Below are positions 9,908 to 44,094 of a DNA stretch of 45,646 bases, one piece after another (position 1 is the stretch's first letter; every line of letters starts with the position of its first letter). This DNA comes from Candidatus Jordarchaeia archaeon (GTDB taxonomy: Archaea > Asgardarchaeota > Jordiarchaeia > Jordiarchaeales > Jordiarchaeaceae), in the NCBI GenBank assembly GCA_018383815.1, contig JAHAWU010000010.1, positions 1 through 45,646 of the forward strand, in the 5' to 3' direction. The position numbers were made by a program, and so were the translations under genes. The notes beneath the pieces were generated by a model. That model saw only the letters and a list, made by a program, of their open reading frames with translations, had not been told where the DNA came from and did no database searches.

Positions 9908-10615
9908 TCATATTTCCCTCTCCTCTATTTTCATTTCTCCCTTTAAATTCATAGTCGATATTACGGCTTTAGATTTGTCATGAGTCACTATGAATACCAG
10001 TTTGGCCCACTTAATGGCCTGGTTGGAAATGTATTCTTTCTTTAACCTTTGTACCTGCTCAATTGAGCTAATTATACTTTTTCTCCTCTTTTCATACTCT
10101 TCAAATGAATCGTAGGGGGAGTAGAAGCGACCCGAAACTACTGTCTTAACTTTTGGGTTTCGGAAGTCCAGATAAAACATGTCTGCATCTTCCGACAAAA
10201 AGATTACGCCCAGAAGCCAATAAACCCGCCAATCTTCACTGGGCAAAAGATTAGGCGACCTAGCGTATCTCAAATGGTCGTTCGGCCAACTAAATTTAGG
10301 AATTATGTCAATGGTTCTAGCCTTAGTTACATATCCGGGTGGGGGAGGAGAAGGCGGGGTTATTTCAAGGCTGTAGCGCAGACCGGGTACTTCATCCAGT
10401 GCCCTTATCAGATCCTCCCTAAACTTCGCTATATTTTTTGGCGTTTCATCCATACGCCTAAACTCTTCTCCTCGATAAAGGTAAATAACCCTGTCACCCT
10501 CCACCAAGTCTTTTTCGTCGGGCATGTCCTCTATGATTTTCCTCAAATCTGCGCCCAACTGTTCATTAAGATTCCCTACAACACTCCTATCAAGATCCCA
10601 ACCTATATCTACCAT
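9908..10615 (-). CDS. Unknown protein, 235 residues
   Basis: I do not recognise this protein. It is soluble by composition, with no signal or membrane segment. It has an acidic N terminus (residues 1-45), a central proline run (TPPSPPPPGY, about 86-95), a SWPNDHLRYARSPNLLPSEDWRVY block and a basic coiled region (EEYEKRRKSI...QRLKKEY). The tail, KAVISTMNLKGEMKIEE, looks like beta strands. It ends 64 bases upstream of queC on the same strand, so they may be co-transcribed. A family 2 element starts 89 bases upstream of its ATG. Confidence 0.6.
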   Translation of the reverse strand: MVDIGWDLDRSVVGNLNEQLGADLRKIIEDMPDEKDLVEGDRVIYLYRGEEFRRMDETPKNIAKFREDLIRALDEVPGLRYSLEITPPSPPPPGYVTKARTIDIIPKFSWPNDHLRYARSPNLLPSEDWRVYWLLGVIFLSEDADMFYLDFRNPKVKTVVSGRFYSPYDSFEEYEKRRKSIISSIEQVQRLKKEYISNQAIKWAKLVFIVTHDKSKAVISTMNLKGEMKIEEREI

Positions 10616-10806: not shown

Positions 10807-11185
10807 CTAAAAAGAGGGTACGCTGTCTTATTGTAGTGACAGAGCCACCCAGAAAGATGTTTAACTCAGCATTAGCTTCTATTTTTCGAGCTTCCCTATA
10901 ACTTGTTTCTGAAATGCGGTCTCATTTGAACTTCCAGCTTTTGCCCAGCTTTAATTGGGCTTATCCCTTCTCTTTTTGTTTAATGGAGACCTTCTGTAGC
11001 TTTCTCTGCATTGAAACCTAGACCTCCTAAAAGTAGTCCCCCATAATTGAGCGAGGCTTAAAATAGGGGTGTACCAAAGGCTTTTTACTTCCATTTTTCA
11101 TGTGAAAGGTAAGGTTCTCAACTAATTTGACTTCGTGGAGTGTAATAATTTTTGTTCGGTTATGGTCTTCTTGAGGTGGGCTGCT
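10807..11185. other. Intergenic region upstream of XPF
   Basis: I see no gene. A TACCAAAGGCTTTTTACTTC motif (about 11070-11090), which loosely resembles one near 1918, sits where an upstream promoter for the XPF gene could be. Confidence 0.35.
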
Positions 11186-11851
11186 TTGATTCTTGTCGAT
11201 CACCGTGAAAAGAGAAGCATGATACCTGCAAAGTTGCAACAATTCGGTGTAGAAATCAGGTTTGAAGATTTACCAGTAGGCGACTACTTGCTTAGCGACA
11301 ATTTATGCGTGGAGAGAAAGGAAATAAACGACTATATTACCAGCCTGACTTCCGGTCACCTCCACACACAGCTTTACGAGCTTAGCACTAACTTCGAAGT
11401 AAGCTACCTCATTGTGGAGGGAATAATATCGGAGGCCCTAATGTACCGCAAAATAAAAAGAGAAGCCTACCTATCATCACTTGCAAGCGCCTCCCTCAAG
11501 AGAAGCCTAGAAGGGAAGAGGGGAATCGTGCAGATAGTTAATTTGGAAACGGCTTTTGACACTGCCCTTTTCCTCAAAAGTCTAGATGAACATGTGGGAA
11601 ACGGAGAACCCCGCATCCCCCCATTATCAAGGGTTAAAAAGGGCGTAAAAGACCAATTAGTATTTATAGTATCCTCGCTTCCCGGAATCGGCGAAATCCG
11701 AGCCAGAAGACTCCTGGAACACTTCGGCGACTTGAAAACCCTGGTCAATGCAGACTGGGGAGAAATCGCAAGCGTTCCCGGGATAGGCGCAAAAACGGCC
11801 AAAGAGCTATACACCCTATTTATAAAAAAATACAGCGAAGAAACGCAATGA
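11186..11851 (+). CDS. xpf: XPF-family 3'-flap/ERCC4 endonuclease, short form
   Basis: Cuts branched DNA next to duplex-single-strand junctions during repair and fork processing. The ERCC4 nuclease domain shows the ILVDHREKR start, GDYLLSDNLCVERK and a following D, the GDX(n)ERKX3D signature. Tandem helix-hairpin-helix motifs follow (LPGIGEIRARRLLEHF and VPGIGAKTAKELYTLF). There is no helicase, so this is the short TACK-type protein that works with PCNA rather than euryarchaeal Hef. I see no clear C-terminal PCNA-binding box. TTG 11186 is chosen because GAGGTG lies 7 bases upstream and the protein then begins at ILVDHRE as in relatives; an ATG at 11135 would add 17 unlike residues. Confidence 0.88.
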   Translation: MILVDHREKRSMIPAKLQQFGVEIRFEDLPVGDYLLSDNLCVERKEINDYITSLTSGHLHTQLYELSTNFEVSYLIVEGIISEALMYRKIKREAYLSSLASASLKRSLEGKRGIVQIVNLETAFDTALFLKSLDEHVGNGEPRIPPLSRVKKGVKDQLVFIVSSLPGIGEIRARRLLEHFGDLKTLVNADWGEIASVPGIGAKTAKELYTLFIKKYSEETQ

Positions 11852-11943: not shown

Positions 11944-12921
11944 TTATATGGATGGTGCAAAGGGCATTTGTCTCCTGTAGTTGGCCATGGTAAGAGTGTT
12001 TTGAACTCTTCTCACGACGCTTTCTTCAACTTCTAGTTTTTCAACTATTTCGTGGGTCTGCATTCCACGTTCCAAACAGCATAGTATAGAGTCCAATTTA
12101 AGATAATCCATACCTATTAGGGCTTCGTCGGTAATTAGGGATCCTAAGATTAGGTCGGGGGTTGAGGGTTTATTTAGTATGTATTTTGGAAGTTTTAAGT
12201 GGTGAGCCAGCTGTCTAACTTGTGTTTTATAAAGGTTTTTAAGTGGCGCAATTTCGCAGGCTCCGTCTCCATGCTCATCGTAGGTGCTTGTTACATATTC
12301 TGACTTGGTTATGGTTCCCGCGACAAGCAATTTTCTGAGGCAAGCGTGATAGTAGAGCATGATACTTCTCAATCTAACTTTGGGGAAGGTGAAGCAGTAG
12401 CCCCGCCTACCGGATTTAATGTCAATCATTTCTATCTCCGAAGTCTTGTCCCTTAAGGTGAAGGAATAATCGCCGGTAAAAGAGTTGGGATCCACTATTG
12501 GTAAATCTACGGCTTTGTGTTCAAACACGCTCACCCTATACGCTTCTCTTAGTTTCTCGATAAACAATTTCTTATTTTTTACGATACTATCGGGAAGTAT
12601 ATCGTATATTCCCATCTTCCTCAATATTGGGGTCAGATCTATAACGTCATACTCTATTTTCAGACTGGAGGCCAGCCTTTTTGCGTCTCTAATATTTTGG
12701 GGTTCACTATCTCTTTCTGGCATAATTAGGCCAAACACACGGTCGGGGCCTAAGGCTCTCACACTTAAAGTGGCAACGGTGCTCGAATCTAGTCCACCAC
12801 TCAAACCCACAATAACGCCCTCTTTCTTAAGTATTCGAACATAATTTCTAATAAATTCCTCAATCTTTTCAGACACGACCTCATAATCCAGTTCCAACAT
12901 CTCAACCATAGAAGATTTCAT
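11944..12921 (-). CDS. NAD synthetase-like protein, copy 1
   Basis: A member of the NH3-dependent NAD+ synthetase family, which amidates nicotinic acid adenine dinucleotide using ATP. The PP-loop GLSGGLDSSTVATLS, the MPERDSEPQN..DA block, GTITKSEY and HGDGACEIAPLKNLYKTQVR are present. TDEALIGM replaces the usual WPGQTDE form. A C-terminal HTH-like helix pair closes the protein, as in archaeal NadE. It is clearly paralogous to 17004-17912 but carries about 23 extra residues (VDPNSFTGDYSFTLRDK and on) before the GYCFTFPKVRLRS block. ATG 12921 aligns exactly with the start of copy 2. No glutaminase domain is present. Upstream on the same strand, 480 bases away, lies the GvpD/KaiC-like ATPase. 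Either a second NAD synthetase or a repurposed member is possible. Confidence 0.82.
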   Translation of the reverse strand: MKSSMVEMLELDYEVVSEKIEEFIRNYVRILKKEGVIVGLSGGLDSSTVATLSVRALGPDRVFGLIMPERDSEPQNIRDAKRLASSLKIEYDVIDLTPILRKMGIYDILPDSIVKNKKLFIEKLREAYRVSVFEHKAVDLPIVDPNSFTGDYSFTLRDKTSEIEMIDIKSGRRGYCFTFPKVRLRSIMLYYHACLRKLLVAGTITKSEYVTSTYDEHGDGACEIAPLKNLYKTQVRQLAHHLKLPKYILNKPSTPDLILGSLITDEALIGMDYLKLDSILCCLERGMQTHEIVEKLEVEESVVRRVQNTLTMANYRRQMPFAPSI

Positions 12922-13401
12922 ACATTTAACCCTCACTGAGTTTTCAGAATCATAATAGAGTGTTTTTGCCAGCTGACACTGCAGTTTATTGGGCGGAGAG
13001 TAAAAGTTTCATTCTGCAACTAGCTTGGGTGTACTTTTTGGGTCGCTTCTGTCTTATGATTTTTAATCTATCCTATCACTACTCTTTTGCTCAAAGGAGT
13101 CCTTTTTGTCGCTCCTTTTATGTTGGTCCTAGAACATTTTGTGGGAAATTTTTGTCTACAAGTATTGCTCCAGATCTGTAAAAGCGCGCTAGAGACTTTG
13201 GTCATGAAAAATAGAGATTTTTTTCTCTAATAATACCTAATAATATTCCTATATCTCGTAACTATTACGGCTTGGCATCTAGGTTCTGTCTAAATTCTTT
13301 TTAGGGGTAAGTTTTGTAGAGTTTCTTTCCCAATCCAGAAAACCAAAATAAGAGGCAGAAATTGGGGTGAATTTAGATCGATATCGAGATTATTCTAAAA
13401 G
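12922..13401. other. Spacer between nadE-like copy 1 and its ATPase
   Basis: About 480 bases with no supported gene. A TTTTGTCTACAAGTATTGCTCC stretch (13149-13170) resembles the TTTGTCTCCAAACATGCTCC segment inside the family 1 element, so a decayed copy may lie around 13090-13200. The match is weak. Confidence 0.3.
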
Positions 13402-14838
13402 TCATTCTATGGATAAAAGTTTGGTTTGTATACTTCTCTCAGAGATGTTTAAACTTGGTACGTATATTTGGGTCTTGGGAATTTCTCCAAAAAACACTAT
13501 GTTACCGCCGATGTTTTCCAGTTTGAAGTAGGACTTTGCCAGATGAGTGGGTAGTTTCAAAGTTTCGTGTCCGAATTGAAACATAACCATTACTCCATTG
13601 AGCTTTTTTATTTGTTCCATCCAGGTTTGTATAATCTTTAAAAGGTCCCCTGTTCCGTAAACATATTCCATGGTGTCACTTGCCATGGTAACAACCAGTG
13701 TTTCGGCCTTAACCTCTTCTAATACCTTTTTGGCTAATTCTGTAAAGTTATTAAGGTCTTCTTTGGGATTTTGCCCCTTCAAATGGTGTGTATTATAAGT
13801 TTCAGTAGGGCTTGGATGATTTTCTGGAGTTAAAAACACATGGAAACATTTCTTCAAACGGTTTAAGGAATCATCACCTAGCGTAGACACTAGCTTTTCA
13901 TTTAAATCAGATGTGGGGACCATTTTTACTACGTCAGTGGAAAAAAGGGATTTAGAAGGTATGCTAAAGACTGGATAACCCTGAAGAACGATGTTAAAAA
14001 ATATGGGGCTGAAAATATAGAAGTGAGCCATACCCACATTTTCCCCTATCTCAAATATGTTGAAGGATCCCTTTTCGAAGCCCCCGCCCAATATTTTGTC
14101 CAGCTCGGGAACCAGAGTGGGAATTTTCCTTCCCTCCTTTTGCTCCAACTTAGTTTCTCGAGGAATAAAGTTTATTTGTAAACCATTTTCGAAGCACCTA
14201 AATCTTCCATCTTTGAGTGTGAAGAGATACATTGGGTTCTCTATCTTATTTCTTCTAATTTTTTCAACGTACAGTTTTCTTATAAGCCTCTCATTCACTA
14301 TGTCTCTCTCCAGCCTTACAACACCGTCAACCAGATAGTCTAACTTACTCTCCTCACATGTTTCGCTTATGAAAATCACATTTGCGTTTACCCTCTCCGC
14401 CATGTCTAGGATGTCTCGTTCCACACTCAAATCTTCCTGCGGAATTCTAAGATTCGACTTTAAATAATCCACGCTATCCGCGATAATTGCTAGGTGTTCT
14501 CCCTTGGCTTCCAGAACTCTAGAGTAGAGGTTTTTTAAGAAACTCGGCCTATCAACGTACTCAAACAGAGTCTCTTCCCTAGTTTGAAGATCCAGGCTGG
14601 TGTTCGCGTCCAGAATGTTTTCTTGGTGAAGGCAGGTTTCAGACCATGGAAACTGGTTATAAAGCCTGCTAGGAGAGACACGAGTGGACAAATAAATCGC
14701 GGAGCAATTCATATAGCGTACCAGTTCGAGAGCCATAGTTGTTTTGCCCGTACCTGCACTACCCTTAATGTGGAGGGAAAAAGTAGGAGACTCTAGAGCC
14801 TCTGAGATTTCTTTCGGAAGGGTAGTGGCTAAAACCAT
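13402..14838 (-). CDS. GvpD/KaiC-like P-loop ATPase, copy 1
   Basis: A RecA-superfamily ATPase, best compared with GvpD and KaiC-like proteins. The first domain has Walker A GSAGTGKT (26-33), the STRVSPSRLYNQFPW segment (51-65) typical of GvpD-like proteins, and a hydrophobic Walker B-like strand (HLAIIADSVDYL). The second domain begins like KaiC (IPTLVPELDKILGGGFEKGS, 239-258), but its Walker A is gone (IGENVGMAHF lacks the GKT). It is strongly similar to 18536-19954 along the whole length. Each copy stands upstream of a nadE-like gene on the same strand. ATG 14838 follows GGGGGT at 7-base spacing. It has no membrane segment. GvpD regulates gas vesicles in haloarchaea, but no gvp genes are present, so the name marks homology only. 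Confidence 0.72.
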   Translation of the reverse strand: MVLATTLPKEISEALESPTFSLHIKGSAGTGKTTMALELVRYMNCSAIYLSTRVSPSRLYNQFPWSETCLHQENILDANTSLDLQTREETLFEYVDRPSFLKNLYSRVLEAKGEHLAIIADSVDYLKSNLRIPQEDLSVERDILDMAERVNANVIFISETCEESKLDYLVDGVVRLERDIVNERLIRKLYVEKIRRNKIENPMYLFTLKDGRFRCFENGLQINFIPRETKLEQKEGRKIPTLVPELDKILGGGFEKGSFNIFEIGENVGMAHFYIFSPIFFNIVLQGYPVFSIPSKSLFSTDVVKMVPTSDLNEKLVSTLGDDSLNRLKKCFHVFLTPENHPSPTETYNTHHLKGQNPKEDLNNFTELAKKVLEEVKAETLVVTMASDTMEYVYGTGDLLKIIQTWMEQIKKLNGVMVMFQFGHETLKLPTHLAKSYFKLENIGGNIVFFGEIPKTQIYVPSLNISERSIQTKLLSIE

Positions 14839-15231
14839 CAGCTTTACCCCCTATTTGCACCATCAATTCAATTTTTAATAGAGACAGTTTGATAGAGACG
14901 GAAAAAATTTTAGGAAGTAATGTATTTTTATAAACCTTTTTTGCAAGTTACCCAATTAGATTTGAGGATTCTACAAATATCGCCACAGTTCTTAGATATT
15001 ATTATGAAGTGTTATTTATATAAAGCTTTTTATTTTCATCTGGGAAATTTATCATATCAAAAGCCATTACCATAATAAAGGTCTATTTCTAGTGGAAATT
15101 CAGCATCACAAAACTACAAGAACAATGTCCTCGCATTTCAAACGCAAAAATAAAAAGCACAACAAAAAAATAAACCTATAGATGCACCTTAACAAAAATT
15201 TTAGGAAATCAAAATTTTAAGAGGAGTAAGA
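14839..15231. promoter_or_regulatory. Divergent promoter region, ATPase copy 1 / FixC copy 2
   Basis: A very AT-rich 393-base gap between divergent genes. TATA-like candidates are TATTTTTATAAAC near 14922-14934 and AAATAAACCTATA near 15168-15180. The motif AAAATTTTAGGA occurs twice, near 14904 and 15194, once next to each gene, and could be a shared binding site. GAGGAG (15220-15225) is a strong ribosome site for the plus-strand gene. Confidence 0.4.
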
Positions 15232-16623
15232 ATGGTGAAGTATGACGTAGTTGTGGTGGGCGGCGGACCCGGCGGCTCCCTAGCAGCGAAGACTGCAAGT
15301 GAAAAGGGCTTAAAGACGATAATGATTGAGCGTGGAAGAAAAATTGGCGACAAATCCTCCTCCGGATGCGGCCTCGCTCCCAGAATTTTCCGCGACTTTG
15401 ACTTCATCAAAAAAATGAACATACCCGGAGTAAAAATCAAGTACCAATCCATGCACATGCTCGATGAAAAACTGGAGGAACGCTTCATGATACGCTGGTC
15501 CACCAGCGATTTGGCAGAGTACCCAGAGGCCCGAGAATTCTTCCAATTCGACGTGTACCGCAGAGATTTTGACCGCTTCCTAGCAGAATTAGCTTCCGAA
15601 GCTGGTGCAGAGATAAGAACGGCTACCCTAGCAAGTGGAGTCCTGAAAGATTCCCAGGGCCAAATCAAGGGCATAATTACTGATAAAGGCGAAAAAGTGG
15701 AGGGAGACATAACCATCGCTGCGGATGGAGCTGTCTCAAAAATTGCCTATCAAGCGGGTCTCAGAGACAAATGGAGACCGGACGAAATTACCCTAGTAGT
15801 AGACTGTGACTTCCAAGCCTCAAGACAAAGAATGGATGAACTCATTGGTCCTGAAGAATATTGTAACCAAGTTTATGTATCACCTCTATATCCTGCCACT
15901 TATGTGGCTATGATGCCTGAGGGATTTCATGTGGGTCTGGGTCAGTGGGTGGGCAGATTTGCCTCAGGTTTCGGAGAGCGTCCCTACGAGTATTTCAGGC
16001 GGGTAATTAGTTCCGGTACACTGAAAAGGTTTATTGATAGACTCCAAGCCAGGCCCAGAGAGTTTCACGCGCACCTTCTTCCCTGGATGCCTAGGATGCC
16101 TACAAAAACCTATGGTGGTGGGATAATGCTGGTGGGTGACGCAGCAGGGTTTGCCTGTCCCCTTGAAGCTGAGGGTATTCACTATGCCATGGTTTCAGGA
16201 AAGTTTGCTGCTGAGGTGGCTGCAGAAGCCATATCTAAAGGAGATGTATCTGCTTCGGGTTTGAGGCTCTATGAGGAGAAGTGGAAAAACTCAACTATAG
16301 GGGAGGAGTTTTCTGCAGCTAGGGAATGGGCGGAGTTCTGGGCGGGCATCTATTTTGATCCTAGCCAATGGACTAAGATTACTCCCTTGGCCAATAACTT
16401 AATGTTCTGGGCGAGCTGGTCAAATCCCCACATACGTAATCTTCGAAGAGAAATTTCCCGTTACTCAGAGGATGTGCCCTTCATTTTGGAATTCGTCAAA
16501 AGCTACATTTATCCATTGCTGCAAAAGTCTCAGGTTCCCCTGTTTAGAAGCCTTTTGAAGTTGGGCTGGATGTGGCTCAGAGCCAAAAAGAGGAAGGGTA
16601 TACAATTGGAGGCGGAGGGATAA
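15232..16623 (+). CDS. fixC: FixC-like / geranylgeranyl-reductase-family flavoprotein (copy 2)
   Basis: The same superfamily as 5902-7209 but clearly diverged. The FAD fold opens YDVVVVGGGPGGSLAA with a full GxGxxG-type loop and an E at IMIERG. A second FAD motif reads GIMLVGDAAGFACPLEAEGIHYAM. It is followed, 2 bases later, by a FixX ferredoxin. The pair sits on the plus strand between the two minus-strand NadE-like/ATPase modules. The first part of the gene is A/C-rich and the last half G/T-rich on the coding strand, with a change near 15840. A GAGGAG 6 bases upstream supports this ATG. The electron acceptor may be quinone-like or another carrier; a lipid-reductase role cannot be excluded. 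Confidence 0.83.
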   Translation: MVKYDVVVVGGGPGGSLAAKTASEKGLKTIMIERGRKIGDKSSSGCGLAPRIFRDFDFIKKMNIPGVKIKYQSMHMLDEKLEERFMIRWSTSDLAEYPEAREFFQFDVYRRDFDRFLAELASEAGAEIRTATLASGVLKDSQGQIKGIITDKGEKVEGDITIAADGAVSKIAYQAGLRDKWRPDEITLVVDCDFQASRQRMDELIGPEEYCNQVYVSPLYPATYVAMMPEGFHVGLGQWVGRFASGFGERPYEYFRRVISSGTLKRFIDRLQARPREFHAHLLPWMPRMPTKTYGGGIMLVGDAAGFACPLEAEGIHYAMVSGKFAAEVAAEAISKGDVSASGLRLYEEKWKNSTIGEEFSAAREWAEFWAGIYFDPSQWTKITPLANNLMFWASWSNPHIRNLRREISRYSEDVPFILEFVKSYIYPLLQKSQVPLFRSLLKLGWMWLRAKKRKGIQLEAEG

Positions 16624-16625
16624 AT

Positions 16626-16904
16626 GTGGTTAAGGAAGAATTTGATTTGAGAAAACTTGTGAAGCGTAGTGGAGAGACAGGGGAATTTATTCGTCACAAT
16701 AAGGCTCTGTGTACTGGGTGCGGAAGATGCGTTAAAATATGTCCGATGGAGCTATGGGAGCTAAAGAAGAGTAAGGCTTTCATATCGCCGGAATATGTGG
16801 AGAAATGCGTGGAGTGCGGAAGTTGCTGGCTGGTCTGTGAATCAAACGCCATCGAATTCAGTTATCCAAAAGGAGGTACGGGTGTCGTCTGGGAGTACGG
16901 TTAA
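16626..16904 (+). CDS. fixX: FixX-like ferredoxin (copy 2)
   Basis: Two cysteine clusters (CTGCGRCVKICP and CVECGSCWLVC) and the FixX tail FSYPKGGTGVVWEYG. Starting at GTG 16626 gives 92 residues, with GGAGGCGGAGGG just upstream inside the end of the FixC gene. An upstream ATG at 16572 would overlap FixC by 52 bases and add unlike residues. It presumably passes electrons to or from the adjacent flavoprotein. Confidence 0.84.
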   Translation: MVKEEFDLRKLVKRSGETGEFIRHNKALCTGCGRCVKICPMELWELKKSKAFISPEYVEKCVECGSCWLVCESNAIEFSYPKGGTGVVWEYG

Positions 16905-17003
16905 CCATTTCCAACCAACATAGCTTCCTGTCTTTAGGAGGCCCCTGTTTTGCTGTAAATTCGTTTTTTGAAGCTAAATCGTCCTCTCCAAATTTTTTTA
17001 TGT

Positions 17004-17912
17004 TTATGGGTGCGGTGTGAGGGGCATTTCTCTTCTGAGTTTTGCCATTTCCACGGTGTTTGCTACTCTTTCTACAGTATTCTCTTCGACGCCTAGCTCT
17101 CCTGCTATTTCGCTGATCCCCATTCCTCTTTCTAGGCAGTATAATATGGAGTCCAGTGTTTCATATTTCATACCTATTAGAATCTCGTCTGTGACTACTG
17201 CGCCAGCGATGAGGTCGGGACTTGAGGGTTTCGTTACTATGTTGTTTGGGACTCCCAAGTACTGGGCGAGCCTTCTTACCTGTGACTTGTAAAGATTTCT
17301 GAGCGGCGCAATTTCGCAGGCTCCGTCTCCATGTTCATCGTAGGTGCTTGTTACATATTCGGACTTGGTTATGGTTCCTGCAACCACCAATTTTTTAAGG
17401 CAGGCGCGATAGTAGAGCATTATGCTTCTCAGTCTTACTTTTGGGAAAGTGAAACAGTAACCTAAGCTTCCAGATTTTATGCCGATTATGGGAAGGTTTG
17501 AAGGTTTGGCCTCAAACGCTGAGACCCTCTTTGCCTCCCTTAACCTCTCCATTAACAGTTTTTTGTTTTTCGCAATTTTATCTGGAAGTAAATCATATAT
17601 CCCCATTTTTCTCAGTATTGGCGTTACGTCTAAAACCTCATACTCTATTTTTAGCATAGAGGCTAACTGCTTTGCGTCTTTGAAATTTTGTGGTTCGCTG
17701 TCCCTCTCAGGCATCAAAAGTCCAAACACTCTATCATTCCCGAGGGCTCTGACACTCAGGGTGGCCACAGTACTTGAGTCTAAGCCCCCACTCAGGCCGA
17801 CAATAACACCATTTTTCCCTAGTAAATCAACAGATCTCCTAATGAAGTCCTCAATATTTTCAGACACCCTCTTATAGTCCAATTCTAACATTTCAAGAAC
17901 TAATCTATTCAT
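17004..17912 (-). CDS. NAD synthetase-like protein, copy 2
   Basis: A paralogue of 11944-12921 with the same motifs: GLSGGLDSSTVATLS, MPERDSEPQNFKDA, GTITKSEY and HGDGACEIAPLRNLYKSQVR. It lacks the 23-residue insertion of copy 1 (IGIKSGSLGYCF here), giving 302 residues, nearer the usual archaeal NadE length. ATG 17912 aligns with the copy 1 start. Frames extending to 18011 would read into the family 1 element and are unlikely. The element ends 46 bases upstream and supplies a TATA-like ACTTTTTATGCCC. It converges with FixX copy 2, 99 bases away. If only one copy is a housekeeping NadE, this shorter one is the better candidate. Confidence 0.83.
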   Translation of the reverse strand: MNRLVLEMLELDYKRVSENIEDFIRRSVDLLGKNGVIVGLSGGLDSSTVATLSVRALGNDRVFGLLMPERDSEPQNFKDAKQLASMLKIEYEVLDVTPILRKMGIYDLLPDKIAKNKKLLMERLREAKRVSAFEAKPSNLPIIGIKSGSLGYCFTFPKVRLRSIMLYYRACLKKLVVAGTITKSEYVTSTYDEHGDGACEIAPLRNLYKSQVRRLAQYLGVPNNIVTKPSSPDLIAGAVVTDEILIGMKYETLDSILYCLERGMGISEIAGELGVEENTVERVANTVEMAKLRREMPLTPHP

Positions 17913-17958
17913 ACACAATCCTTCACCCAACAATCGTAGGACATAGATAAAATTAAAA

Positions 17959-17970
17959 GGGCATAAAAAG
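17959..17970 (-). promoter_or_regulatory. TATA-like sequence at the MITE end, for nadE-like copy 2
   Basis: On the minus strand CTTTTTATGCCC, the terminal inverted repeat, lies about 47-58 bases before ATG 17912. That predicts a transcript start near 17938 and a leader of about 25 bases. The assignment is inferred from archaeal TATA spacing. Confidence 0.4.
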
Positions 17971-18181
17971 TTTTTAGTGTATTTTTGGTATTGGGGCGTG
18001 TTTGGAGACAATGGTTCCCTAGAAGGGGATTAGACTCCAATTGGAGAGAAGCCTATTAGGGCTCCCTTTTGGCAAAAGTGGGGAATAGATGGGGAGACCC
18101 TAAACCACACACAAGAAGACAACTCGAAGCCCCAGTCCGAAGACGTCCTCCAGCGGCCTGCACTAAAAACTTTTTACGCGC
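17959..18181 (-). mobile_element. MITE-like element, family 1, copy B (about 222 bp)
   Basis: Read on the minus strand it begins CGTAAAAAGTTTTTAGTGCA and matches copy A (1308-1529) through nearly all its length, with scattered substitutions and short gaps, ending in TGTCTCCAAACA, AATACCAAAAATACAC and TAAAAACTTTTTATGCC. It is non-coding. It lies between the second nadE-like gene and its upstream ATPase, so it widened that spacer after the module formed or was copied. Confidence 0.78.
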
Positions 18182-18535
18182 AATTAAACAATAATCAAAT
18201 ATGCTGAAGAAGCTAATAAAGTAACCCACAGGTTAACTCCACTTTTAGCCGCCTTTGATGAGCATCCTTCCGTTTTAATTGTCGCTTCTTTTATCTGCCA
18301 CTACCTTACAGATGTTGGATGAAATATAAGAGGCCATGAAAAGCAGGTTAGCTCAGCGAATCAAAATTCAGAGGCTTCTCACATTTCTGAGAAGACGCGA
18401 TGAACAAGTCTACTTTCTGCTCACAGCATCTCCAACATAGTTAAGAAAAGGAACTCTGACCTGGGGTGGAAGAAAGCGGAAGAAAATAGAAGGTTTATTT
18501 GGTATTTTGTTGTTGCTTCTCTATTTTAGTTCTGG
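18182..18535. other. Spacer between ATPase copy 2 and the MITE
   Basis: About 350 bases with no supported gene. GATGA and CTGA-like motifs near 18255-18400 were checked for a C/D-box RNA, but the spacing of C, D' and D boxes is not convincing. Confidence 0.35.
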
Positions 18536-19954
18536 TCACTCTATTTGAGTAAGTCTGGTTTGTACGTATTTGTTTGAGATGTCTAGACCCGCCACATACA
18601 GTTTTGTTTTGGGGTTCTGTCCATAAAATAGGATGTTGCCGTACATATTTTCTACTTTGAAGTAGGATGATGCAAGGTGGGTTAATGATTTTAGAGGGCT
18701 GTGTCTGAATTGGAATAGGATTATGACGCCGTTTAACTGTTTTATTTGGTGTATCCAAGCTTGAACTGTCTTGAGCAGGTACTTTGAGCCGTAAATGTGT
18801 CCCATTGTGTCGCTAGCTATGGAAACGATTGGGGTGTCGGATTGTGTCTCATTCAAAACACGGCAGATAATCTGTTTTAAACGGTTTAGTTCTTCCTCTG
18901 GGTCTATTCCCTCAAAAAAGTAGTTGTTATAGATATCAGTTGTACGGGGGATAAATGTTGAGGGACGTAAAACATGGAAATATCTCCTCAGTGAATCAAA
19001 GATTTCTTTTTCCATGACCGATTGAGGGATGTATCTTAGTAGATCCGTGCTATAGATACCCTTAGAGGGCATGCTAAAGACCGGATAGCCTTGACGTATA
19101 AAATTGAAGAACATGGGGGTCAAAAGGTAAGCGTGCTCCACGCCCACCCCGTTGCCTATATCGAATATGTTGAGGGAAACCCTATTAAAACCCCCTTGGA
19201 GTACATTGTCTAGTTCGGGAATTAGAGTTGAAATCTTTCCCTCCCTTCTCTCCACTTTTGGAAAATCAGCTGTTGTAAGGTAGGTTTGAATGCCCTTATC
19301 AAAGCATGTGAATCTGCCATCTTTAAGTGTAAATAGGTAAACTGAATTCTCAATTCTCATTCCGCGAATTTTTTCGATGTACAACTTTCTTAAAAGTTGA
19401 CCATCTATGAATTCTTTTTCCAACCTAATAATACCGTCAACCAAATAGTCAAGTTTACTTTCTCCATCTGTTTCACTTATGAAAATCACATTCACATTTA
19501 GTTTTTCCGCCATCTCTAAGATGTCATACTCTATGCTGTAATCATTCTCTGGAATTTTAACATTATGCTTTAGGGATTCTAAACCATCCAAAATCATAGT
19601 GATGTGCTCCACTCCCGCCTCCGCAACTCTTGAATATAAACTTCTAAAGAAGCTAGGTCTATCAACATATTCGAAAAGAGTGTGCTCTTTATCCCTAGAA
19701 AGAATATCGCTTTTCACATCTAAAATATTCTCCAGGGGAATATAGGACTCACACCACGGAAACAGCCTATAAAATTTCTCTGGTTTTACTCTAGCAGATA
19801 GATATATGGCCGCTCCTCCATCCAGAAACTGCCTCCCAAGCTCGAGAGCCAAGGTGGTCTTACCAGTACCCGCACCACCCTTAATATGGAGAGAAAATGT
19901 TCCAGATTTGAATGCCCCAGCTATCTCAGAGGGAATGTTTGTGGTTAATATCAC
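18536..19954 (-). CDS. GvpD/KaiC-like P-loop ATPase, copy 2
   Basis: A paralogue of 13402-14838. Walker A GGAGTGKT lies near the N terminus; IYLSARVKPEKFYRLFPW, LFEYVDRPSF, NVIFISET and SKLDYLVDG blocks are shared with copy 1. The second KaiC-like domain (ISTLIPELDNVLQGGFNRVS) again lacks a Walker A (FDIGNGVGVEH), so the loss is conserved in both. GTG 19954 is preferred: GGGGTG is 6 bases upstream and the start then lines up with copy 1. Longer reading to 20017 would add a Cys-rich stretch without a counterpart. It is the upstream member of the second ATPase/nadE-like pair. Confidence 0.72.
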   Translation of the reverse strand: MILTTNIPSEIAGAFKSGTFSLHIKGGAGTGKTTLALELGRQFLDGGAAIYLSARVKPEKFYRLFPWCESYIPLENILDVKSDILSRDKEHTLFEYVDRPSFFRSLYSRVAEAGVEHITMILDGLESLKHNVKIPENDYSIEYDILEMAEKLNVNVIFISETDGESKLDYLVDGIIRLEKEFIDGQLLRKLYIEKIRGMRIENSVYLFTLKDGRFTCFDKGIQTYLTTADFPKVERREGKISTLIPELDNVLQGGFNRVSLNIFDIGNGVGVEHAYLLTPMFFNFIRQGYPVFSMPSKGIYSTDLLRYIPQSVMEKEIFDSLRRYFHVLRPSTFIPRTTDIYNNYFFEGIDPEEELNRLKQIICRVLNETQSDTPIVSIASDTMGHIYGSKYLLKTVQAWIHQIKQLNGVIILFQFRHSPLKSLTHLASSYFKVENMYGNILFYGQNPKTKLYVAGLDISNKYVQTRLTQIE

Positions 19955-39965: not shown

Positions 39966-40182
39966 CTAATCACCCTCTAACCGTTCCAAATCATGTTAAT
40001 GAATTATTCCTCACTGTTTACTAATAAAGTTTTAACCAAAAATGAATTTTCGGACTTGCAAAATGTTTATTATATTCTTAGTTGAATTAAAATGCTTAAA
40101 AGTCGTTGTTTTTCGATTAAATGGAGAGAATGTGTAGTTGTTTGATGAGGGAGACTAAAATTAGTTGTTCCTAGGTGGTTTG

Positions 40183-43155
40183 ATGAATGCGCTTAAAGAG
40201 TTGAAAAGTAACTTTTCGATTGGAATGTTTAAGCTTTCGTTGAGACTGATGGGGTTACTGTTCAGGATAAGTCCTAAGCTGCGTAAGGAGGTTTACAACA
40301 AGGAGACGGGTTTCATTTTCAATGCGAAGTACCAGTTTAAGACTCGCGACGGCAAAGTTAACATCTATGTGGTTTTTAAAGATGGCAAAATGAAGGTAAG
40401 TGACGGGGTTATTGATAATCCCAACATTACCATTTATTACAAGGATAAGGAGACCATGGCTAAAATCTGGAATAAGAGTCCTGAGGAATCCCTCAACTAT
40501 CTCTTAACCAACGAGATGAATTATGTGGGGAACATGGCTTACCTCACCAAGTTCTCCTACATGACCACAGTAATTAAGGGAGCAAAAATAAAGGGCTACA
40601 AGGGTCCTGGAAACAGGTTGCTCTACCCCATAGGGGACATTGATAAGGAGAAGAGGAAACGCCTCCAAAACGAGATACTGGGCCGAAAGGTTGACAACGT
40701 AAAGTTTCTTGAAGACCCCTACCTTGGGAAGTATTCTATTGATGATTTTCCACGCCTAAAATACCTGAAGAACCGCCGCTACGCCCTTAAACCCGCAATT
40801 TGTGTGGAAAGAGCCAAGCTTCTCACAGAGTACCACAGAGAGAACGGCTTCGAAGTTGACAAGAATGGAAAGCCTATTGACCCTGAACTCCGCCAAGCAA
40901 AGGCACTATATCACATATTGACCAACCGCAAACCCATAATCCACGACCAATACCTCATTCCCGGCTCCACAACCACCAAGGAGGTGGGCATACCCATCTA
41001 TCCCGAACTGATAGGAACCGCCATCTGGCCAGAATTGAGGACGATATATAAGAGGGAGCTCAACCCCAACGACATTTCTCCCCAGGATGCAGACATTCTA
41101 AACTTTGAAGTGTTCCCCTACTGGATGGATAGGAATGTGCGGGAATACTGCAGGCAAAAGTATGGAAACCCAATCTCCCAACAGTTGGAAGAGCGGTTCG
41201 TCCTATACTTCATGATGAAGAACAACGCCATATCCCACACTGTTCCCGGACTCCCCAAAGTACTAACTCTGGGATTTGAAAAAATCAGGGAAGAAGCGGC
41301 TCAAAAAGAGAAGGAGGCCAAATCTCCAGAGAAGAAGAACTTCTACAAGGCTGTCCAAATAGTGATTGATGGGGTTTTAAACCACGCCAAAAACCTAAGC
41401 AAGGAAGCTCTGAGAATTGCGGAAACCCTAGACCCCAACGATCCCCAGCAGGCCAGAAGAATAGAGGAGCTGAAGGAAATTTCCAGAATTTGCGCCAAGG
41501 TGCCAGCAAAGCCCGCGGAAACCATGCATGAGGCACTAACTTCCCTCTGGATTACCTGGACCTGCATTCACAGTGAAAACGCTAATTCCGCCATGTCCAT
41601 TGGAAGACTGGACCAGATGCTTCAACCCTACTTTGAAAAGGAAATGTCCCAGGCAAAAACAGACAAAGAGAGAGAAGAAATAATAAAAAGAGCCATAGAG
41701 TTGGTGGGGCACTTCTTCCTCAGGATTAACGACCACGACCCACTGGTGCCCAGCGTGGGAAACAAACTTTTTGGCGGCAGCTCCTCAGACGACACCGTAA
41801 CCGTGGGAGGAGTAGACAGAGAGGGAAAAAACGCAGTAAACGACATGACCTACATTATCCTCAAAGTGGCGGAGATGCTATGCTTCCAAGACCCCAACAT
41901 GAACGCCCGATACTACACGGGAATAAACTCTAAGGAGTACTTGAGACGTCTATGTGAAGTTAACATTAACATGGTTGCCTCACCCTCCATCCACAACGAT
42001 AAGGCAATGATTGAAGCCCTAGTCCACCAGGGAATCCCCATAGAAGACGCAAGAGACTGGGCGGCCACCGGCTGCGTGGAGCCCACAATAGTGGGAAAAC
42101 ACTTCGGCCACACCAACTGCATGCTCCTAAACCTTGTCGCCCCCCTGGAAATGGCCCTCAACAATGGAGTACACCCAGTAATGGGAGAAAAAATAGGTCC
42201 AGAAACTGGAGATGTTAGAAACTCATTTGACACCTTTGAAGACTTCCTCAACGCCTACAAAACACAGCTAAGATACCTGGCCGAAAAATCTATCGAAATA
42301 AACAATTACCTAGGATATGCACACCAATACATACATCCCACTCCCCTGCTCTCGTCACTATTTGAGGGCTGCTTGGAGAAAGGCACAGATGTAGTCAATG
42401 GAGGAGCTATCTACAACACTTCCGGAGTAGCGTTAGTTTCACTGACCGATGTGGTGGACAGCCTACTGGTCATAAGGGATTTAATCTATAAAAAGAAGGT
42501 TCTAGATTGGCCAACCCTAATGAACGCACTGGAAAACAATTTTGAGAATGGAACCGAGGAAGTCCTACGCAAAATCCAGAAGGTTCCCAAGTTCGGCTCA
42601 GATGAGCCTGGAACCAATGAGGTAGCCCAAGACCTAATAGATTACTGCTTTGACCTATACAATCCAGCCAAAAACTATCGTGGAGGAAACTATCTCGTAG
42701 GATACTGGTCCATAAGTTACCACGTGGGTTTCGGCATGCTCTCTGGAGCCCTACCCTCAGGGAGAAAGAAGGGGAAAGCCTTCACGCCCGGATTGACCCC
42801 CGCGCCTGGTCCCTCAGACCAGCTGCTCCAGAACATCCGCTCAATAGCGAGCATGAACTATCTGAAAATGCCTAACAATGCCTCCTACAATGTGAAGCTT
42901 GTGCCACACTCAGGAGATTCGCACAAGAAAACACTCGACTTGTTCACTAGCTATGTTCAGAGCTTCTTTGACCTGGGAGGAATGCAGTGGCAATTCAACG
43001 TAATAACGTCAGACACACTGAGAGACGCTATGAAAAATCCTGACGATTACCGCTGGCTGCTGGTTCGAGTATCAGGATACAATGCCTACTTTGTAAAATT
43101 GAACAAGAACATGCAGCAGGAAATAATTGAGAGGACAGAGTTCTGCGCAAGATAA
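40183..43155 (+). CDS. Glycyl radical enzyme with N-terminal SCP2-like domain
   Basis: The main part (from about 190) is a PFL/glycyl-radical-type enzyme. The catalytic Cys and its neighbour appear as GCVEP (C631, E633), as in dehydratases and lyases such as CutC and glycerol dehydratase. The radical Gly is G965 within RVSGYNAYFVKLN, 26 residues from the end. The first 130 residues form a separate SCP2-like lipid-binding domain (VYVV-type strands, GKMKVSDGVIDNPNITI, and YVGNMAYLTKF). That fusion is uncommon among known family members. ATG 40183 follows AGGTGG at 4-base spacing. The activating enzyme follows 39 bases later, so it is active only without oxygen. The substrate may be lipophilic; that is inference. 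Confidence 0.85.
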   Translation: MNALKELKSNFSIGMFKLSLRLMGLLFRISPKLRKEVYNKETGFIFNAKYQFKTRDGKVNIYVVFKDGKMKVSDGVIDNPNITIYYKDKETMAKIWNKSPEESLNYLLTNEMNYVGNMAYLTKFSYMTTVIKGAKIKGYKGPGNRLLYPIGDIDKEKRKRLQNEILGRKVDNVKFLEDPYLGKYSIDDFPRLKYLKNRRYALKPAICVERAKLLTEYHRENGFEVDKNGKPIDPELRQAKALYHILTNRKPIIHDQYLIPGSTTTKEVGIPIYPELIGTAIWPELRTIYKRELNPNDISPQDADILNFEVFPYWMDRNVREYCRQKYGNPISQQLEERFVLYFMMKNNAISHTVPGLPKVLTLGFEKIREEAAQKEKEAKSPEKKNFYKAVQIVIDGVLNHAKNLSKEALRIAETLDPNDPQQARRIEELKEISRICAKVPAKPAETMHEALTSLWITWTCIHSENANSAMSIGRLDQMLQPYFEKEMSQAKTDKEREEIIKRAIELVGHFFLRINDHDPLVPSVGNKLFGGSSSDDTVTVGGVDREGKNAVNDMTYIILKVAEMLCFQDPNMNARYYTGINSKEYLRRLCEVNINMVASPSIHNDKAMIEALVHQGIPIEDARDWAATGCVEPTIVGKHFGHTNCMLLNLVAPLEMALNNGVHPVMGEKIGPETGDVRNSFDTFEDFLNAYKTQLRYLAEKSIEINNYLGYAHQYIHPTPLLSSLFEGCLEKGTDVVNGGAIYNTSGVALVSLTDVVDSLLVIRDLIYKKKVLDWPTLMNALENNFENGTEEVLRKIQKVPKFGSDEPGTNEVAQDLIDYCFDLYNPAKNYRGGNYLVGYWSISYHVGFGMLSGALPSGRKKGKAFTPGLTPAPGPSDQLLQNIRSIASMNYLKMPNNASYNVKLVPHSGDSHKKTLDLFTSYVQSFFDLGGMQWQFNVITSDTLRDAMKNPDDYRWLLVRVSGYNAYFVKLNKNMQQEIIERTEFCAR

Positions 43156-43160
43156 AAAAC

Positions 43161-43184
43161 CTTTTTTTCTTAACTTTTTTATAG
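43161..43184 (+). promoter_or_regulatory. T-rich intergenic segment between GRE and its activase
   Basis: CTTTTTTT, then ACTTTTTTATAG, in the 39-base gap. This could be a weak terminator giving less activase than enzyme, or a TATA-like box for the activase alone. Sequence does not tell which. Confidence 0.3.
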
Positions 43185-43194
43185 TTGATAGGCG

Positions 43195-44094
43195 ATGACT
43201 AAGAGAACATTAATAGTGGATATTAAAAGAAACGCGTTGGACGACGGTCCGGGAATACGCACCCTTATTTTCTTTAAGGGATGCCCCCTTTCCTGTGTCT
43301 GGTGCCAAAATCCGGAGACTAAGAGTGCAAATCAGGAAATCGCCTTCTACCGGGAAGACTGTGGAGAATGTGGAAGATGCCTGGAAGCTTGCCAAAGGAA
43401 GGCCATAGACTTCTCCTTCCGGTACCGCATTGACCGCAGTTTATGTAATCTCTGCGGCGAGTGCATAGAGGTGTGTCCCAACGAGGCACTGAAATTTGTG
43501 GGCAGAGAATACCAGATAGGAGAACTGGTGGACATCATATTAAAAGACAAAATTTTCTTCCAGAACTCGGGAGGGGGAGTCACCCTATCGGGCGGAGAAC
43601 CCCTCTACCACATGGAATACGTGAACCAATTATTGAGGGAACTCAAAAAAGAAAACATCCATATCTGCATAGAAACCAGTGGACACTACAACCGCGAAAA
43701 ATTCAACGAATTAGTATTACCCTACGTGGACCTCATTTATTTTGATTTGAAGATATTTGATCCAGAACTACATTTAAAATACTGTGGGGTGAGAAATGAA
43801 AAAATTTTCAGCAATTTCGAAGATTTGGTAAAGAATCAGAAAGTAGAGGTTCTGCCCCGAATCCCACTAATCCCAGATATTACTGCCACAGAAGAAAATC
43901 TAACCAGATTAGCCAACTATTTGAAATCTTTGAGCATAGAAAAAATCGGCTTACTACCCTATAATCCGCTGTGGCTTTCTAAGCCCGAAAAAATCGGAGT
44001 GGAACCAGAATACCACCGCTCAGAATGGCTGAATAACCAGGAAAAAGAAAAAATAAAGACCATCTTCTCGGGTTTTGAATACGAAAATTTTTAA
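43195..44094 (+). CDS. Glycyl radical enzyme activating enzyme (radical SAM)
   Basis: Uses S-adenosylmethionine and a 4Fe-4S cluster to create the glycyl radical on its partner. The radical SAM motif C30-x3-C34-x2-C37 lies in FKGCPLSCVWCQNPE. Two ferredoxin-type clusters are inserted after it (CGECGRCLEAC, CNLCGECIEVCP), typical of activases for dehydratase-type enzymes rather than PflA. GGGVTLSGGEPLYH and ETSGHY follow. About 299 residues. It lies directly downstream of the GRE and in the same direction. Confidence 0.93.
   Translation: MTKRTLIVDIKRNALDDGPGIRTLIFFKGCPLSCVWCQNPETKSANQEIAFYREDCGECGRCLEACQRKAIDFSFRYRIDRSLCNLCGECIEVCPNEALKFVGREYQIGELVDIILKDKIFFQNSGGGVTLSGGEPLYHMEYVNQLLRELKKENIHICIETSGHYNREKFNELVLPYVDLIYFDLKIFDPELHLKYCGVRNEKIFSNFEDLVKNQKVEVLPRIPLIPDITATEENLTRLANYLKSLSIEKIGLLPYNPLWLSKPEKIGVEPEYHRSEWLNNQEKEKIKTIFSGFEYENF

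Follow-up and report, generated by a model that had tools for sequence, protein, structure and literature searches.

A clade of GvpD/KaiC-type ATPases and a divergent NadE-like protein form a recurrent gene pair in the Asgard genus Jordarchaeum

Introduction

Why would a relative of NAD synthetase be encoded twice, and in the same order, behind a gene for a GvpD/KaiC-like ATPase? The question is raised by a stretch of 45,646 nucleotides (the window; contig JAHAWU010000010.1, here C121) from a 3.79 Mb Asgard archaeon of the Jordarchaeum genus, for which a protein search returns Candidatus Jordarchaeum madagascariense, Jordarchaeia isolate RPF2 and Freyarchaeota isolate SQRJ_82 as close relatives. 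Archaeal KaiC-like ATPases are numerous and are thought to be signalling hubs, and few of their output partners are known. A first-pass annotation of the window had described an ATPase/NadE-like pair kept together by selection and had proposed for it a regulatory or defence role in which NAD is sensed or rebuilt. Throughout this report the genus set consists of four genomes, G000 (the genome that contains the window), G001, G002 and G003, and a fifth carrier, G184, belongs to another Asgard family.

The two modules

Two minus-strand modules had been claimed, each with the ATPase gene first and the NadE-like gene second, and both are indeed found, 2.1 kb apart, with the following features:

11944..12921, minus strand: NadE-like PP-loop protein copy 1, 325 aa, the long form with an extra 23 aa
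12265..12276, minus strand: EHGD motif of NadE-like copy 1, from the residue alignment and the alignment to 2e18
12784..12801, minus strand: PP-loop SGGLDS of NadE-like copy 1, the ATP pyrophosphatase signature, from the translation and conserved in the alignment
12922..13401, minus strand: gap of 480 bp between ATPase copy 1 and NadE-like copy 1
13402..14838, minus strand: GvpD/KaiC-family ATPase copy 1, 478 aa, from family matches, alignments and fold search
14737..14763, minus strand: Walker A GSAGTGKTT of ATPase copy 1, from the translation and kept in all five other relatives that reach this region
17004..17912, minus strand: NadE-like PP-loop protein copy 2, 302 aa, the short form
17325..17336, minus strand: EHGD motif of NadE-like copy 2, from the residue alignment
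17913..18535, minus strand: gap of 623 bp between ATPase copy 2 and NadE-like copy 2
18536..19954, minus strand: GvpD/KaiC-family ATPase copy 2, 472 aa from the GTG at 19954, in a frame open to 20017
19853..19879, minus strand: Walker A GGAGTGKTT of ATPase copy 2, from the translation

The best start of NadE-like copy 1 is the ATG at 12921 and not the GTG at 12936, and that of copy 2 is the ATG at 17912 and not the TTG at 18011; purine-rich stretches resembling ribosome sites precede most NadE-like starts. The distance from the ATPase stop to the NadE-like start, 480 and 623 bp in the window, is 153-529 bp in the other pairs of the genus, and with genes so loosely spaced within the module co-transcription is not evident. 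The gap at 12922..13401 contains no long open reading frame on the gene strand, and a search of the window matched no Rfam family or tRNA in either gap. The ATPase-proximal part of the 623-bp gap matches the orthologous gap of G003 at about 80% identity; a conserved element was considered here and rejected, since the identity between orthologues is about what synonymous divergence predicts.

Alignments of the copies bear out that both partners are paralogous along their full length. The accompanying description of the copies as having diverged a great deal suits the ATPases, at 52% identity, and is overstated for the NadE-like proteins, at 72%. Between orthologues, dN/dS is 0.13 (NG86) or 0.17 (YN00) for NadE-like copy 2, 0.23 (NG86) or 0.35 (YN00) for ATPase copy 2, and 0.12 (NG86) or 0.23 (YN00) for part of ATPase copy 1, and values this low (0.12-0.35 overall) indicate that both genes are under purifying selection. 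The idea that selection has kept the pair together is thus supported by the low dN/dS and weakened by the other neighbouring genes, which also keep their order in the genus. Over codons ~181-229 (window 12230-12380 compared with 17290-17370) the two NadE-like copies show 60-80% third-position identity, with a peak of 80%, compared to ~32-60% over most of the remaining length. This pattern suggests an old gene conversion over the active-site motif, which would have occurred before the split from G003.

Distribution and genomic setting of the pair

All four genomes of the genus carry linked NadE-like genes, three in G001 and two in each of the others. Wherever the upstream flank is sequenced (one G003 gene begins at a contig edge and was left out of this count), the NadE-like gene lies behind a same-strand ATPase gene, always of one clade, in 8/8 cases across the four genomes, although this adjacency is weaker than the count suggests because the surrounding genes, too, keep their order in the genus, and the four genomes are not independent of each other. 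Since the arrangement recurs in 4/4 genus genomes, chance can be excluded as its cause, and the pair is conserved beyond the window and is more than a local segmental duplication. On contig C32 of G001 a tandem ATPase-ATPase-NadE-NadE block (L018 3263-8981), in which it is ambiguous which ATPase pairs with which NadE-like gene, is accompanied by a separate pair upstream; the module therefore expands within the lineage.

A tree of 36 GvpD-like ATPases unites the linked ones with one G184 sequence in a clade with 100/100 support, and a second ATPase of G184 falls just outside it. We sampled 26 Asgard GvpD-like ATPases outside this clade, from the Jordarchaeum genus and other Asgard families, and none (0/26) has a NadE-family gene beside it, in flanks that usually extend at least 1.5 kb on each side and are shorter at some contig ends. 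An enrichment of such ATPases near nadE-like genes, as might be expected from the first-pass annotation, is therefore a property of one clade and not of the GvpD-like family at large. Of 228 Asgard genomes, five have members of the ATPase clade, and the linked NadE-like clade is represented in the same five, those of the genus and G184. In G184 only 61 bp separate the NadE-like gene from the contig end of C193, and the ATPase gene is cut by the end of C122, so that adjacency there is neither seen nor denied. Beyond the Asgards we used close-match patterns in one genome collection, a translated plasmid search and viral contigs, and the viral contigs held no relatives of the pair. As far as searched, the pair is narrow in distribution.

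Conserved adjacency does not have to reflect a shared function, and the genes might instead be linked passengers, that is, accidental neighbours in an ancestor which were duplicated together and have stayed in a slow-changing region while serving separate functions. A convergent ERCC4 nuclease gene beside the NadE-like gene in 4/4 genus genomes (in the window an ERCC4-HHH nuclease gene at 11135-11851, plus strand), together with geranylgeranyl-reductase-like and ferredoxin genes near the pairs, likewise keeps its order, as would be expected of such a region; the gaps within the pair are wide (153-623 bp), and the ATPase and NadE-like trees do not match fully. However, the region has been rearranged between G000 and G001, with a GH94 gene inverted in G000, a QueC block moved and a pair of corrinoid-protein and methyltransferase-like genes inserted in G001 relative to G000, and every ATPase/NadE-like pair is intact despite these changes, which represent few independent events. 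The unit is moreover held in two to three copies per genome, and both clades are present in the same outside genome, G184. Taken with these points, linked passengers are a serious explanation that we nevertheless consider doubtful.

The ATPase

Both ATPases match the P-loop domain of GvpD (GvpD_P-loop, PF07088) well above its gathering threshold of 24 bits, with 59.5 bits (5e-16) for copy 1 and 49.0 bits (9e-13) for copy 2, and both match KaiC in Pfam (PF06745). GvpD is the haloarchaeal gas-vesicle regulator (PF07088/PF20440), and the similarity to the Halobacterium protein is whole-length, at 24.5% over 95% of the protein (E 5e-18). Copy 2 in addition has a weak match to GvpD_bR2 (PF20440) at 25.4 bits, under the gathering threshold of 27.9, and copy 1 is without a match. 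GvpD binds GvpE and causes its breakdown, for which the P-loop is needed, and the Jordarchaeum ATPase resembles it further in being encoded beside a protein that it possibly controls, as gvpD is with gvpE (PMC4390858). Unlike with GvpD, no gvpE-like neighbour was seen beside it, its partner is an enzyme and it does not carry the C-terminal RRR. The gas-vesicle family PF00741 gave no match in the five carrier genomes, and likewise none in the control genomes.

The first RecA-like half contains an intact Walker A, GxAGTGKTT, and a Walker A or GKT is absent from the second half in all copies compared. The protein is a GvpD-family double-KaiC ATPase with one intact nucleotide site and one inactive-looking site; KaiC domains that have diverged and may be inactive are known from other signalling proteins of archaea (PMC5847659). 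A predicted model of the ATPase has a mean pLDDT of 74.8 and a pTM of 0.49, and Foldseek finds double-domain KaiC along the whole model (E 9.6e-23 over 495 columns), with a TM-score of only ~0.32 because the arrangement of the model's two halves is uncertain.

Archaeal KaiC-like ATPases have been proposed to be hubs of signal transduction, a proposal of Makarova, Galperin and Koonin (2017) as it is relayed in PMC5847659 and PMC6393860. The ATPases described here share with them the KaiC fold, the two RecA-like halves of which one looks inactive, and membership of a large paralogous family. Their neighbours are also similar: the genes close to sister ATPases, both within the genus and in a further Asgard family, encode KaiC, a TackOD1-AsnC-type HTH protein and Ras-like GTPases, one of which carries a short adaptor-like domain at its N terminus, and this places the sister ATPases in a signalling setting. 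What differs is the NadE-like ligase as a constant neighbour. KaiC-like ATPases with partners are a kind of arrangement already known from archaea; in the literature outside the main KaiC-hub paper we found no record of a NadE-derived partner.

The NadE-like protein

Both NadE-like proteins match NAD_synthase (PF02540) strongly, at 4e-60 for copy 1 and 3e-57 for copy 2, each in two pieces around a long insert. They share the PP-loop fold family and the ATP/Mg residues with NH3-dependent NadE (NF010587, PF02540) and, unlike it, carry the long insert; with 227.9 and 227.5 bits they miss the NF010587 equivalog cut-off of 255. The insert is common to the linked copies, other Asgard paralogues and the PRK00876 NadE-like subfamily (NF002048; rhizobial plasmids), where it occupies the same place, and copy 1 is co-linear with NF002048 in one stretch (8-316 to 6-307 of 330). 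The linked copies are nevertheless well under the NF002048 cut-off of 313 bits (194.9 and 201.1) and have different gene partners. Identity to the canonical NadE of the same genome is 35%. A canonical single-domain NadE is encoded elsewhere in 5/5 carriers (contigs C160 in G000, C42 in G001, C273 in G002, C77 in G003 and C281 in G184), and G001 and G002 additionally have a two-domain NadE. In a tree of 38 NadE-family proteins, which has several long branches and in which deeper placements are unsure, canonical NadE is separated from the linked copies with support of 97/87, and the linked copies group with that of G184 in a distinct clade (100/99).

The ATP/Mg residues SGGxDS, Arg146, Thr166, Glu171, Asp182 and Lys195 (E. 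coli numbering) are kept in the linked copies, and the changes fall on residues that we take to contact deamido-NAD, the presumed roles of both groups being those of E. coli and B. subtilis NadE. Lys179 is Glu in 8/8 linked copies tested and Lys in 8/8 canonical single-domain copies, where it belongs to a T-K-x-G-D motif whose Lys position corresponds to the Glu of EHGD in the linked copies; unlinked single-domain paralogues keep this Lys. Asp186 is replaced by Glu in the genus and is Asp in the G184 copy, and His266-Lys267 has become x-Arg in the linked copies, with loss of the HK motif. The alignment to the solved structure 2e18 gives the same residue changes. The rhizobial plasmid copies of PRK00876 keep the canonical-site Lys and Asn, unlike the linked copies. 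An AlphaFold model of the NadE-like protein, with a mean pLDDT of 42.6, was too poor for inspection of the pocket.

One reading of these data is that the protein is a second NAD or NMN synthetase, placed under the control of a signalling ATPase that adjusts the supply of NAD. It would account for the strong NadE homology and for the retention of the whole ATP-pyrophosphatase site, and a precedent exists in Francisella, where NadE acts as an NMN synthetase (PMC3376133). At three of the changed positions, the two-domain NAD synthetases in this alignment carry Leu, Gly and Tyr; the pocket changes therefore argue against an NAD product, although not decisively. More difficult for a second synthetase is that every carrier already has a canonical NadE, joined by the two-domain enzyme in two of the genomes, and that the Lys-to-Glu change is fixed throughout the clade and seen in none of the other single-domain copies or paralogues, and we therefore regard it as unlikely. 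The spare canonical NadE in each carrier, the separate clade and the changed deamido-NAD site likewise speak against the role in sensing or rebuilding NAD that was first suggested for the pair.

Paralogues of NadE are also found in other surroundings. Sixteen other Asgard genomes (L086-L101) encode a second NadE paralogue, which shares the long insert of the linked copies and has no GvpD-like ATPase in the flanks retrieved, and those of the 16 that were checked have a better-scoring NadE-family match elsewhere. The nearest plasmid relatives, on two rhizobial plasmids, directly follow genes for asnB, acyl carrier protein and an AMP-forming ligase, in these clusters:

L031 8264-12999: asnB, acyl carrier protein, AMP-forming ligase, NadE-like
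L032 8220-12996: asnB, acyl carrier protein, AMP-forming ligase, NadE-like

By its gene content the plasmid cluster looks like an amide- or natural-product-forming set, and the position beside asnB, acyl carrier protein and an adenylate-forming ligase indicates that such paralogues occur outside NAD loci.

In prokaryotic immunity NAD is often targeted, which had made it worth considering that the pair serves defence or stress by sensing or rebuilding NAD in the course of an infection, but this is very improbable, as PADLOC gave no match over most of either protein (only weak hits, E 1e-4 and weaker, within the P-loop or a helix at the C terminus), the chromosomal neighbourhood with its metabolic genes is stable and conserved across the genus, and relatives are missing from the viral contigs. 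PADLOC also picked up the QueC-family homology of the ordinary queC gene in the window.

Discussion

The explanation that we tentatively favour is a lineage-specific functional pair, in which a signalling ATPase is joined by a PP-loop ligase that has been repurposed for a carboxylate different from deamido-NAD. It takes account of the pairing, the purifying selection, the two protein families, the retained ATP/Mg site beside a changed acceptor site, the presence of a canonical NadE elsewhere in each carrier and the signalling-type neighbours of sister ATPases. In such a pair, the GvpD-type double-KaiC ATPase would bind ATP in its first RecA-like domain, the second being inactive-looking, and the NadE-derived ligase would activate a carboxylate by adenylation with ATP, most likely followed by amidation, a ligation chemistry that follows from the conserved site and the family membership. 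The ATPase may control the activity, assembly or stability of the ligase, much as GvpD controls the stability of GvpE; alternatively, the ATPase and the ligase could act in one pathway. The substrate other than deamido-NAD, the physical contact between the proteins and the direction of control are what we infer from these comparisons.

In this lineage one ATPase clade has a constant enzymatic neighbour, and the substrate site of that neighbour has changed in the same lineage. If the link between the two is real, Asgard archaea would provide a defined pair of ATPase and effector, along with a case in which a NAD-synthetase descendant has a new substrate. A bolder proposal, which at present seems quite improbable to us, is a new archaeal signalling module in which a KaiC-type ATPase controls a ligase descended from NAD synthetase and the output is an amidated or adenylated small molecule, or a modified protein carboxylate, possibly one of the ATPase itself.

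Other features of the window

At 40165-44094 on the plus strand, the window encodes a glycyl radical enzyme followed by its radical-SAM activase, here in an Asgard archaeon; the enzyme has 996 aa, of which ~195 residues precede the PFL-like domain, and its score is under the TIGR01774 cut-off. On the minus strand at 9908-10615, directly upstream of queC, lies a gene for a 235-aa protein without a family match, and this gene and queC travel together between genomes.
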